From Microbacterium sp. LWO12-1.2 (GTDB lineage Bacteria; Actinomycetota; Actinomycetes; Actinomycetales; Microbacteriaceae), in NCBI RefSeq assembly GCF_040675875.1, contig NZ_JBEGII010000001.1, positions 2,108,001-2,172,000 of the forward strand: a stretch of DNA of 64,000 bases, read 5' to 3'. Below are positions 3,132-35,005 of the stretch, one piece after another. Numbering within the stretch: position 1 is the first letter of the stretch; each line of letters opens with the position of its first letter. Both the position numbers and the translations under genes were made by a program. The notes under the pieces were generated by a model, which saw nothing but the letters and a program-made list of their open reading frames with translations, was not told where the DNA came from and did not search any database.

Positions 3132-3956
3132 ATGGCGTCATCTCCCCTGGGTCGTCCCACACGCGGCACGACCGGGACCAACCGGCTGCGGCGCAACGAT
3201 CGGTGGATCGCCGCGAGCGAGGCATTCCGACGCGCCACCGACCCGTTGGTGATCGATCTCGGCTATGGCGCCAGCGGTGTCACCGCGTTCGAACTGGCCA
3301 CCAGACTGCGCGCCGTCCGGCCCGATGCCGAGGTGCGTGGGCTCGAGATCGACCCGGCCCGCGTCGCCACGGCAACTGCACAGTTGGAGGAGGTGCGCGC
3401 CGGCCGCACGCCGTTCGCCCCCGACCTGCCCGTCTCGTTCGCACGCGGCGGGTTCGAGGTCCCGCTGCCGGCCGGTCGTCAGGCGGCCGTCATCCGCGCA
3501 ATGAACGTGCTGCGCCAGTACGACGAAGCGGATGTGGCCGGCGCCTGGCGGACGGTCGCGGCACGTCTGGCACCGAGCGGCCTGCTCATCGAAGGCACCT
3601 GCGACGAGATCGGCCGGGTCTCGAGCTGGGTCGATGTGCGACCGGACGGCAGCCCTGTGCGCTTCACGCTGTCCCTGCGTCTCGCCGAGCTCGAACAGCC
3701 GAGCATCGTCGCCGAACGCCTGCCCAAGGCGCTGATCCATCGCAACGTCGCCGGAGAGCGCGTCCACGCACTGCTCGTCGACCTCGACCGCGAATGGGAC
3801 CGCGCGGCGTCACTGTCGACGTTCGGAGCGACGCAGCGGTTCCTCGCCACGGTGACAGCGCTGCGCGCACAGGGATGGCCGATCCTCGGTGGCCGCACAC
3901 GATGGCGCCTGGGCGAGCTCACGCTGCCCTGGGACGCGGTGGCCCCTCTCCCCTGA
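3132..3956 (+). CDS. Class I SAM-dependent methyltransferase (substrate unknown)
   Basis: This 274-residue predicted cytosolic protein has a Rossmann-type SAM-binding start: VIDLGYGASGVTAFEL (motif I), then GLEIDPARV, where the acidic residue would contact the SAM ribose. Further motifs include VIRAMNVLRQY and LAPSGLLIEGTCDE. The N-terminus has a polar segment rich in Arg and Asn (TNRLRRNDRWI). GGAAGG before the ATG is a fair ribosome site. It is divergent from gpmA and convergent with ygfZ. The substrate cannot be told from sequence; the family is common and uncharacterised in actinobacteria. Confidence 0.75.
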   Translation: MASSPLGRPTRGTTGTNRLRRNDRWIAASEAFRRATDPLVIDLGYGASGVTAFELATRLRAVRPDAEVRGLEIDPARVATATAQLEEVRAGRTPFAPDLPVSFARGGFEVPLPAGRQAAVIRAMNVLRQYDEADVAGAWRTVAARLAPSGLLIEGTCDEIGRVSSWVDVRPDGSPVRFTLSLRLAELEQPSIVAERLPKALIHRNVAGERVHALLVDLDREWDRAASLSTFGATQRFLATVTALRAQGWPILGGRTRWRLGELTLPWDAVAPLP

Positions 3957-30734: not shown

Positions 30735-31646
30735 TCACAGCGGAAGCGGTGTCGAGCCGAGGACGCTGAGCAGCAACGGGGCGACGCCGAGCAGGAGGAA
30801 GGCCGGCAGCGTGCATACGCCGAGCGGGAGGAGCAATCGGGTGGAGAGCCGGGCCGCCCGCAGCCGCCCCTGCACCCGTGCGGCATGACGCTCTTGCGCC
30901 GCCGAGGCACGGAGCAGCTCCGCGGCGGGAACACCTGCGGCACGCGAGAGATCGAGGACTGTTCTTATCCGGTGTTCCGGCTCCTCCCCGGAGACGGAAG
31001 TCGTCGCGACCAGGTGCAGGGCCCGTTCGACCGAGGCGCCGCCGGAGACGGCGATCGCCACGAGCTCGGCGCGCATTCCCGGTGTGCCGGGCCGCGGGCG
31101 GGCCCGCCTCAGCAGCCGACTCGTCCACATGCGTGCGACACCGACCAGACCGAGACCGACCAGCACGCACGTCGCCGCCAGCGGATTGCGCACGACGACG
31201 CCCACCGTGTCGAAACCGAGCGCGAATCCCAGGAGCAGTCCGGCCAGCGGCATCCACAGGAGCAGGCGCGCCGTCCCCGCGGGTTCGGCGAGCGCGATAC
31301 GCACGTCATCCGCAGCGGACGCCGCATCCCTCAGAGTCTCCGCGATCATGCGCAGCACTTCAGCGAGAGGTGCGCCGACGGTCGTGGCGATCTCCCATGC
31401 AGCGGCGAGGTCGATCCACGCACCTCCTTCGGCCTCGATCGCCGCCAGCAGCGGCATGCCGCCATCGAGGCGTGCGACCACGGACTGCGCGTGCACGTCC
31501 CCCGTGTCGGCGAGGTGCCGCCACGCAGCGGCAGGAACGGCGCCGGCCTGGAGGAGGACGGCGAGCGTCTGCACCGATGTCGCCGCGTCCACGGTGGAGG
31601 CACCTCCGCGCGGCGCCGACGACGCACGCCAGAGGCGGATCACCAC
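30735..31646 (-). CDS. TadB/TadC-like type II secretion F-domain protein
   Basis: 303 residues with several membrane segments in the T2SSF arrangement and the GGMPLLAAIEAEGGAW and ATTVGAPLAEVL stretches. It is the inner-membrane platform of the pilus machine and joins TadA. It seems to merge the role that is split into TadB and TadC in longer loci. The start overlaps the end of tadA by 7 nt. Confidence 0.82.
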   Translation of the reverse strand: MVIRLWRASSAPRGGASTVDAATSVQTLAVLLQAGAVPAAAWRHLADTGDVHAQSVVARLDGGMPLLAAIEAEGGAWIDLAAAWEIATTVGAPLAEVLRMIAETLRDAASAADDVRIALAEPAGTARLLLWMPLAGLLLGFALGFDTVGVVVRNPLAATCVLVGLGLVGVARMWTSRLLRRARPRPGTPGMRAELVAIAVSGGASVERALHLVATTSVSGEEPEHRIRTVLDLSRAAGVPAAELLRASAAQERHAARVQGRLRAARLSTRLLLPLGVCTLPAFLLLGVAPLLLSVLGSTPLPL

Positions 31647-32653
31647 GGCCGCACCTCCTCGATACCCAGACGGTCTCCACGCATCTCGAAGACGCCGGCC
31701 TGAGCGATCCGCCGCACGCCGTCGGGGGTCCGCTCGAGATGCAGCACGATCGTGAACGCGCTGACGACCTGACGTGCGAGGGCCGTCGCGTCCATCCCGG
31801 CGAGCGCTCCGAGCGCCTCGAGTCGCGCCGGCACGTCACGAAGACCACTCGCATGGAGCGTGCCCGCTCCCCCGTCGTGCCCGGTGTTCAGCGCGCTGAG
31901 GAGTTCGCGCACCTCCTCTCCTCGGCATTCACCCACGACCAGGCGATCCGGGCGCATGCGCAGCGACTCCCGCACGAGACGCGCCAGGCTGATCTCCCCC
32001 GCTCCCTCGAGATTCGCCTGTCTCGCCTCGAGCGCCACATGGTGCGGGTGTCGCGGCCGGAGCTCGGCGACATCCTCGATCGTCACGATGCGCTCGGCCG
32101 GCGGAGCCTCCGAGAGCAGTGCGGAGAGCAGTGTCGTCTTGCCCGTTCCGGTGCCTCCGGTGATGAGGATGTTGGCTCTGCTGTCGACGAGCCCCCGCAA
32201 CCATCGCTGCTGACCTTCGTCGACTGTTCCTCTGGCGGCAAGAGCATCGAGGTCGGCGGCATGCACGCGCGGGATCCGTATCGACAACGCCGTCCCCGCC
32301 GTGGCGATGGGGGCGAGCACCGCGTGCACCCGGATGCCGGAGGCCAGGCGCACGTCGACGCAGGCCGCCTGGTCGTCGAGGTGGCGGCCGCCGAGGCCGA
32401 CGAGGGCCACGGCGAGATCCCGCACTTCGCGCTCCGATGCGCTCCATCCGACGACCGGCTCCGTACCCTGTCCTCTGTCGACGAAGAGGCCCCGTGCGCC
32501 GTTGACGAAGATGTCGGTGACCGTGTCATCAGCGCAGTACTCGGCGAGCGGCCCGAACGCCCCGTCGACACGGAGCGCGGACGCGGACGAGAGCGGATCT
32601 GCTCCGGATGCGGCGCTCGCCTGTCGGGGCTGGATGACGAAGGAATCGGCCAT
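31640..32653 (-). CDS. tadA: Tad-type secretion ATPase TadA (VirB11/CpaF-like)
   Basis: 337 residues. Walker A is GGTGTGKTT, Walker B RIVTIEDVAELRP, and MRPDRLVVGECRGEE is the Asp/His-box region of secretion ATPases. It powers assembly of the Flp pilus. TAGCGT lies exactly 6 nt before the ATG, so the mRNA is likely leaderless. The usual upstream Ssd/CpaE-like ATPase gene is absent here. Confidence 0.88.
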   Translation of the reverse strand: MADSFVIQPRQASAASGADPLSSASALRVDGAFGPLAEYCADDTVTDIFVNGARGLFVDRGQGTEPVVGWSASEREVRDLAVALVGLGGRHLDDQAACVDVRLASGIRVHAVLAPIATAGTALSIRIPRVHAADLDALAARGTVDEGQQRWLRGLVDSRANILITGGTGTGKTTLLSALLSEAPPAERIVTIEDVAELRPRHPHHVALEARQANLEGAGEISLARLVRESLRMRPDRLVVGECRGEEVRELLSALNTGHDGGAGTLHASGLRDVPARLEALGALAGMDATALARQVVSAFTIVLHLERTPDGVRRIAQAGVFEMRGDRLGIEEVRPW

Positions 32654-32784
32654 GCCCCGACGCTAGGAGCCGGCGCCCCCGCGGGGATGCCGGGATCACA
32701 CGGCCTGTGAAGAACCGCTCCCGCCGTCCCTCCGTGCAGGACGGTTCGCGAGTGCACCGTCCGACCGATCACGACGGCCGCGGA

Positions 32785-32868
32785 GACGGAGAAGGGCGGC
32801 ACCTCACGGGGGGAATGAGATGCCGCCCACGGCGCTCCGCGATCGGGGGAATCGGGGCACGCCAAGGC
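32785..32868 (-). ncRNA. 6C small RNA
   Basis: On the minus strand two hairpins have C-rich loops. The first (32831-32863) is a symmetric stem-loop with loop TCCCCCG. The second (32794-32828) pairs 8 bp and then CTCA with TGAG, with loop TTCCCCCCG, and acts as terminator before TTCTCC. This matches the actinobacterial 6C RNA architecture. In M. tuberculosis the 6C RNA (B11) lies in the gap beside the Tad/Ssd genes, the same place. A -10 candidate is near 32874-32881. Ends are approximate. Confidence 0.8.
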
Positions 32869-33037
32869 CGGAATGAGTATTCGGCTGTCGTCGAGTGTAC
32901 GCAAGGCGACGGTCCTGACAAAACCCGCGGTACTACCTACTTTCGGCAGTATGCGATGTCGGAGGGCGGGGCTAGATTCGCCCTGACTTGATCGTGCCCT
33001 CTCACGACCATGCCCTGACGCAAAGGAGCGCCTGCTG
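32869..33037. other. Divergent regulatory gap between 6C RNA and acs
   Basis: The non-coding gap from tadA to acs covers 32654-33037. This half carries the 6C RNA promoter (TTGCGT and a TACTCA-like -10, minus strand) and a possible acs -10 box TAGATT at 32973-32978 with an approximately 53-nt leader. The other half (32654-32784) has the tadA -10 box and a TCACA-CGGCC-TGTGA palindrome at 32696-32710, which is not the usual CRP/GlxR spacing. Confidence 0.4.

Positions 33038-35005
<1,968 letters not shown>

Follow-up and report, generated by a model that had tools for sequence, protein, structure and literature searches.

A weakly recognisable but genuine 6C RNA keeps its ancestral place beside tadA after the loss of ssd in Microbacterium

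Outside mycobacteria and corynebacteria, little is known about the function of the small RNA 6C (B11 in mycobacteria). Its tight linkage to the ssd and tad genes invites the idea that it is in the service of those genes. The RNA is widespread in Actinobacteria, was not detected in M. leprae, is present in multiple copies in some mycobacteria and lies near Ms1 with one gene in between (PMC9569102 and PMC6582537, partial texts). Our literature search, which left most subscription papers outside its coverage, found no report of 6C in Microbacterium; the one paper it covered that names both 6C RNA and Microbacterium deals with ANTAR RNAs. The 64,000-nt stretch of Microbacterium sp. LWO12-1.2 analysed here (the window) carries two adjacent C-loop hairpins on the minus strand between acs and tadA, with no ssd gene in between. 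Is this element a 6C RNA, and what could it do in a genome which has dispensed with its usual neighbour? The features concerned are the following:

32785..32887, minus strand: 6C RNA, with a predicted length of about 100 nt and inferred ends, placed by the genus model R1 and Rfam 6C
32865..32887, minus strand: 5' tail of 6C, about 23 nt ahead of the Rfam match, in which GCCG is conserved and CCG invariant in 62/62 aligned sequences
32831..32863, minus strand: hairpin 1 of 6C, C5 loop at 32845-32849; from the fold and from 13/13 modelled stem pairs changed on both sides (71 sequences)
32794..32828, minus strand: hairpin 2 of 6C, loop UCCCCCC with C6 at 32808-32813; from the fold, 7/14 pairs changed on both sides and 98.9% of cells paired
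33038..35005, plus strand: acs, acetyl-CoA synthetase, divergent neighbour of 6C (TIGR02188, 961.4 bits against a cut-off of 724.95)
31640..32653, minus strand: tadA, encoding a TadA-family ATPase; it follows 6C downstream, where ssd usually lies (TIGR03819, 412.1 bits against a cut-off of 373.15)

The minimum-free-energy fold of the minus strand consists of hairpin 1 at 32863-32831 with the loop CCCCC and hairpin 2 at 32828-32794 with 14 pairs and the loop UCCCCCC, the very coordinates at which the original prediction had placed its hairpins with C5 and C6 loops. None of 200 dinucleotide shuffles folded as stably (z -3.9). The start of the transcript was placed 7 nt past the -10 hexamer and its end directly past hairpin 2. 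This hairpin may double as a terminator stem; a terminator search of the window region gave no match to a T-run terminator after 6C.

The original prediction had named Rfam 6C (RF01066) as the model with which the RNA could be recognised, and the outcome was mixed. The model matched 32864-32791 on the minus strand over its full length with 34.7 bits (E 0.0049 in a search of 381 bases with 4227 families), but this is about 12 bits short of the gathering score of 47 bits, a curation threshold, and the scan of the window at this threshold did not report 6C. Moreover, in a whole-genome search with the 6C model, which scored 150 of the 1612 first-look candidates, a plain terminator-like hairpin elsewhere in the genome (L001) reached 34.8 bits, and the three places that this search listed at E <= 10 did not include the window copy. 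The Rfam score alone therefore cannot separate the window copy from chance on the scale of the genome, and the L001 hairpin speaks for the view that the element is just two chance hairpins, such as a terminator pair, in a GC-rich genome. The loops of the window copy hold five and six C, compared with the name-giving six in both. The number of C per loop is not fixed, however, since the C. glutamicum 6C has eight in each (PMC4046766, partial text).

A sample of tadA loci, the best 80 of at least 509 stretches encoding a relative, was used to assess conservation. The loci come mostly from Microbacterium; a few are labelled only Microbacteriaceae, Actinomycetota or alike, one is from Frigoribacterium and one from Planococcus. 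A pattern search found the twin hairpin in 61 of the 80 loci. The covariance model R1 detected the identical 61 loci at E 1.5e-8 or better, in addition to the window, and gave no match in the acs-tadA interval of the 19 others. This model was built from 17 sequences, so that 45 of the 62 6C sequences (window counted) were outside model building; the window, which scored 113.4 bits at 32888-32782, is one of the 17. When 71 6C copies were aligned, standard pairs occupied 92.5% of the cells, compared with 80.7% in shuffles and 33-57% with slid partners. Changes on both sides were found at 20 of the 27 base pairs (13/13 in hairpin 1, 7/14 in hairpin 2) against 13.9 in shuffles, counts which lean towards the structure because the alignment was fitted to it. 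RNAalifold applied to a MAFFT alignment, which is independent of the structure fit, recovered hairpin 2 with 5/13 pairs compensated and did not predict hairpin 1.

Hairpin 1 is the variable part of the RNA, whereas loop 2 has an almost invariant C run among the 6C copies. On its own, hairpin 1 folds only modestly better than shuffles (mean z -1.5). At least four C of a run lie in its loop in 60 of the 62 single-sequence folds; the exceptions are L044, which has no C run, and L048, with only three C in the predicted loop. The L044 copy (3787-3891), whose hairpin-1 loop is devoid of a C run, falls in a tree group shared with the 6C-less lineages L054, L070 and L075, and is possibly a decaying 6C gene.

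Eight of the ten loci checked were below the gathering score, and a 6C match above the Rfam cut-off was found in 3 of 35 same-genus genomes (own included). In two of these three, L007 (51.8 bits) and L008 (51.7 bits), 6C is flanked by acs on one side and by tadA on the other. Because the window copy misses the gathering score and yet copies in the same place reach 51.8 and 51.7 bits, its membership in the 6C family rests on orthology. The mean majority fraction over 17 sequences was 0.93 for the RNA and 0.92 for its promoter, compared with 0.59 for the spacer between 6C and tadA, 0.84 for the upstream part of acs and 0.76 around the tadA -10 hexamer. Since the RNA is conserved in 61/80 loci, its stems covary and its promoter is conserved as well, the window 6C is real, as had been predicted; the probability of a chance pair of hairpins is next to nil. 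The element is a weakly recognisable but genuine 6C RNA with two C-loop hairpins, which has kept its ancestral place after the loss of a neighbour gene.

In a sample of 148 genomes of the class, 6C (match at E <= 0.01) was found in 85 (64 over the cut-off) and Ssd (match at E <= 1e-20) in 117 (111 over the cut-off). In 72 of the 85 genomes with 6C, the RNA lies directly upstream of ssd on the same strand, at a gap of 112-1151 nt (median 206.5). Altogether 80 of the 85 have Ssd, and in eight of these 6C is not in the upstream place; the remaining five, two of them from Microbacteriaceae, carry 6C without an Ssd match. All five Microbacteriaceae genomes listed in the class sample are without Ssd at E <= 1e-20, and no Ssd over the family cut-off was found in the genome of the window (best 44 bits against 154). 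In other genomes ssd is known to be followed by tadA; the counts given here cover the step from 6C to ssd. The common order is thus 6C-ssd-tadA, the window represents the state after the loss of ssd, and this loss is why its 6C is adjoined downstream by tadA. Conversely, no 6C match was obtained in 37 of the 117 Ssd-bearing genomes, which is an upper bound because the class search misses weak copies, including those of G000 and G034. The syntenic position beside tadA and the absence of ssd in the presence of the RNA had both been noted in the original prediction, together with the suggestion that 6C is not simply an accessory of Ssd. All three are borne out, the last one by the genomes with one partner only and by the promoter of 6C itself.

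Three elements upstream of 6C and tadA are of importance in this respect:

32916..32921, minus strand: -35 hexamer TTGTCA of the 6C promoter; TTG lies within the -35 window in 55/62 sequences
32894..32899, minus strand: -10 hexamer TACACT of the 6C promoter; TANNNT ends 4-5 nt ahead of the aligned RNA block in 62/62 sequences
32660..32665, minus strand: -10-like hexamer TAGCGT of a separate tadA promoter, leaderless-type by sequence; TANNNT before the ATG in 70/70

The combination TTGTCA-16-TACACT (9 of 12) is the sole promoter-like site in 32600-33100 (mean 0.0 in 50 shuffles). TTGTCAG ahead of 6C resembles what we take to be the RecA-NDp motif. A PafBC-type DNA-damage promoter was considered and rejected: because TTGTCAG occupies the -35 position, 16 nt from TACACT, the 6C promoter is read as one of the ordinary housekeeping type. 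The C. glutamicum 6C was found to be increased about two-fold on mitomycin C (as cited in PMC6789036, partial text). Another element, CCGAAAGTNGGTA, is conserved between the divergent acs and 6C promoters, at 32934-32946 (minus strand) in the window and at the corresponding position in relatives. Visual inspection of the 17 loci lacking 6C showed an exact copy in 3 and a changed but still recognisable one in 11; since it persists there, the element may serve acs.

The tight linkage to ssd, on the same strand, directly upstream and with a median gap of 206.5 nt, would be odd for a trans-acting RNA, and the Rfam type label of 6C is Cis-reg. Both would fit a cis element, i.e. a 5' leader or an attenuator of the tad (usually ssd-tad) operon. 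A set of 70 tadA starts, comprising the window and 69 loci with a match from residue 1 and 60 bases upstream, points in another direction. A -10-like TANNNT ends 6 nt (59 sequences) or 7 nt (11 sequences) ahead of the ATG in all of them, and a Shine-Dalgarno-like GGAG, GAGG or AGGA is absent in 70/70 from the 15 bases located 18 to 4 nt ahead of the ATG. The tadA mRNA thus looks leaderless, with a promoter of its own, and a transcript shared with 6C is not supported by these sequences. The second C run is separated from tadA by anything between 77 and 388 nt (some tadA starts were extrapolated from partial matches), in a spacer with a conservation of 0.59; tadA is kept in 17 genomes with no detectable 6C; and the effects of B11 in M. 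abscessus extend to over 200 genes (PMC10470900, partial text). We consider the leader or attenuator improbable. Since 6C has its own promoter and tadA a separate one of apparently leaderless type, 6C would not be a leader of tadA, nor would the tadA start be its target. The tadA mRNA was also rejected as a target on account of this start and of the lack of a G tract in the first 60 nt of tadA in the window. The suggestions that 6C is linked to the pilus genes through a tadA leader, and that its C loops pair with a G-rich tadA leader, are not supported by these results.

A palindrome within two mismatches of TGGGAGCGCTCCCA occurs in 25 of the 62 spacers between 6C and tadA (e.g. in L050, L052, L058 and L078) and is absent in the window. 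It resembles what is presumably the CebR/LacI-type sugar-repressor box of actinobacteria; judged by this motif, sugars may in some species control tad or the read-through from 6C.

The 19 tadA loci without 6C do not all represent a loss. Two of them are contig-edge artefacts, as 6C lies beside acs on other contigs of these genomes (38.8 and 58.5 bits). In the remaining 17 genomes, the best R1 score was 25.4 bits and no convincing copy was found elsewhere among the 150 candidates scored, out of several thousand, in each genome, while the same search found 6C in all three control genomes carrying it (L033, L101 and L107). Relocated copies were looked for among matches at E <= 1; in six of the seven genomes having such a match, the inspected sequences were one copy of a second C-loop RNA (RNA 2, see below), four terminator-like hairpins and one coding-like sequence, and all were rejected. 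All 17 genomes keep tadA, by which the loci were fetched. Since no 6C was found there, the RNA is dispensable in 17 of the 80 genomes. In an Acs tree with 78 rows, of which 61 have 6C and 17 do not, the label has to change four times, and at least two of these changes fall on well-supported branches. The rows without 6C are one clade of 13, further rows in the M. aerolatum/ihumii group and L038, which stands beside 6C-bearing relatives. The rows nearest to the window in the Acs tree are Microbacterium.

RNA 2, found upstream of a csp gene, may bear on these losses:

G000:C1:3361041-3361161 (L002 1450-1570, L168), outside the window: RNA 2, a twin hairpin that has a UCCCCCC loop and is accompanied by a palindromic operator; it precedes a csp gene

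Its parts are, in this order, the palindrome TTGTCCCCC-N4-GGGGGACAA ahead of the promoter, a -10-like hexamer, a short hairpin in which GACG...CGUC encloses CACCCUCCGGU, and a long hairpin (GGCCCUCAUCGC-UCCCCCC-GCGGUGAGGGCC). The fold has a z of -6.2 (-2.8 in the divergent copy L159), and the sequence is nearly unchanged among many Microbacterium species. The 6C model gave 28.3 bits at G000:C1:3361092-3361152, below the cut-off; among Rfam families at E <= 1, the own copy matched only 6C (E 0.072) and two unrelated sRNA families with 20.2 bits or less, and the 6C model gave nothing at E <= 1 on seven further copies. Model R3, applied to an order sample of 119 genomes, detected RNA 2 in 5/6 Microbacterium genomes. 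Its two weak matches outside the genus (35.4 and 33.6 bits), a hairpin without a C run and a C5 in coding-like sequence, were taken for chance, given their sequence. In all 38 copies (own included) the run in the second loop is C6 or C7, and 102-240 nt past the RNA a csp-like frame begins; the TGTCC...GGACA palindrome was recognised at 33 of the 38. The first loop is in most copies a CUCC tetraloop within a CCCUCC stretch, and CCUCC in this hairpin resembles what we take to be the 16S anti-Shine-Dalgarno sequence. In the genomes L088 and L097, which belong to species without 6C, hairpin 1 of RNA 2 also has a C6 run, with four C in the predicted loop, and these two copies resemble a 6C RNA located elsewhere. 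The cspA thermoregulator model matched 7/7 RNA 2 stretches with 17.6-57.3 bits, under its gathering score of 78, and this favours the reading of RNA 2 as a csp leader; the best match (L258) lies mostly over the csp gene, yet begins inside RNA 2.

Could RNA 2 stand in for 6C? It was found in 37 of 49 genomes behind the tadA loci, i.e. in 15/17 without 6C and in 22/32 with 6C. The ten 6C-bearing genomes without RNA 2 are all from the divergent L101-L112 set, where the best score of a laxer search was 22.9 bits; the two genomes that have neither RNA reached 23.5 at best. Thus 47 of the 49 genomes have 6C or RNA 2, and as about four genomes without both would be expected under independence and two were seen, the association is not significant. 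It is conceivable, if somewhat doubtful, that RNA 2 overlaps 6C in function, and 6C could then have been dropped repeatedly because RNA 2 shares its work.

For the 6C of the window itself, structure, conservation, its own promoter, the separate promoter of tadA and the missing ssd are established at the level of sequence. We hold it to be highly probable that the element is the Microbacterium orthologue of 6C/B11, with its own transcript of about 100 nt and an inherited place, most likely acting in trans via the C loops. Transcribed independently, this small RNA would measure about 100 nt and consist of a conserved 5' tail followed by two hairpins exposing C5 and C6 runs; the position between acs and the tad genes would be inherited, ssd having dropped out of 6C-ssd-tadA. 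Translation of a target mRNA would be blocked through pairing of either C loop with a G tract at its ribosome-binding site. G-tract pairing and repression are most likely by analogy with the mycobacterial orthologue, and the RNA is probably a translation repressor. In M. abscessus, B11 represses an eccB4 reporter, in which a G6 tract pairs with either C loop; the genes with raised expression in the B11 deletion mutant are enriched for complementary ribosome-binding sites (PMC10470900, partial text). Base pairing was demonstrated there by compensating mutations of the B11 loop and the UTR, which restored repression (PMC10470900, partial text). The latter result argues against a different role of the C loops, namely that they mainly bind a protein (a cold-shock or other single-strand RNA-binding protein), which the RNA would titrate instead of pairing with mRNAs. 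Titration would agree with the almost invariant C run of loop 2 beside a variable hairpin 1 and with the UCCCCCC-type loop of RNA 2 upstream of a csp frame in 38/38 copies; all in all, we consider it very improbable.

Suitable targets for trans-acting 6C may be present in the genome. GGGGGAA-N2-8-ATG occurs at 39 sites, compared with 3 for the reversed pattern, so that G-tract ribosome-binding sites do exist, although any Shine-Dalgarno-like motif would give such an excess. Thirty of the 39 sites were inspected; the candidates are from one genome only. Seven look by eye like true gene starts, three of them with a Pfam family: a Cys/Met-metabolism enzyme (L179), a DUF2510 protein (L189) and a Lys/Orn monooxygenase (L197). 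One of the 30 sites is the antisense of 6C itself. Another of the seven, L192 (G000:C1:2192777-2192792), is a GGGGGAA ribosome-binding site ahead of a protein which is TasA/camelysin-like by eye (no Pfam match); judged from its sequence, this gene is a possible candidate target of 6C in surface biology.

Microbacterium uncouples the parts of this locus. The ssd gene is gone and 6C is kept in one state; 6C is gone and tadA is kept in the other, in 17 genomes including close relatives which differ in 6C. The genus is therefore a natural test bed for the role of 6C, and RNA 2 offers a testable reason for its loss.

The RNA of the window resembles 6C (RF01066; B11 in mycobacteria, cgb_03605 in C. 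glutamicum) in its two adjacent hairpins with C-run loops, and it shares with 6C the place upstream of the ssd/tad genes and a promoter of its own. The C. glutamicum RNA is about 100 nt long with a 27-nt 5' extension (PMC4046766, partial text), compared with a predicted length of about 100 nt and a tail of about 23 nt in the window. The window copy differs from 6C in its score (34.7 vs 47 bits), in loop 1, which is C5, and in the loss of ssd. Scr3202 (RF02833) of Streptomyces, with C-rich hairpin loops, has a similar C-loop design and gave an overlapping weak match of 21.0 bits, but this is far under its gathering score of 52, and parts of both stems are missing from the window in the alignment. 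More than one C-loop RNA per genome, as found here for 6C and RNA 2, is also known from mycobacteria with extra 6C copies (PMC9569102, partial text). In contrast to those copies, RNA 2 scores no higher than 28.3 bits against the 6C model and has mostly CUCC in its first loop.
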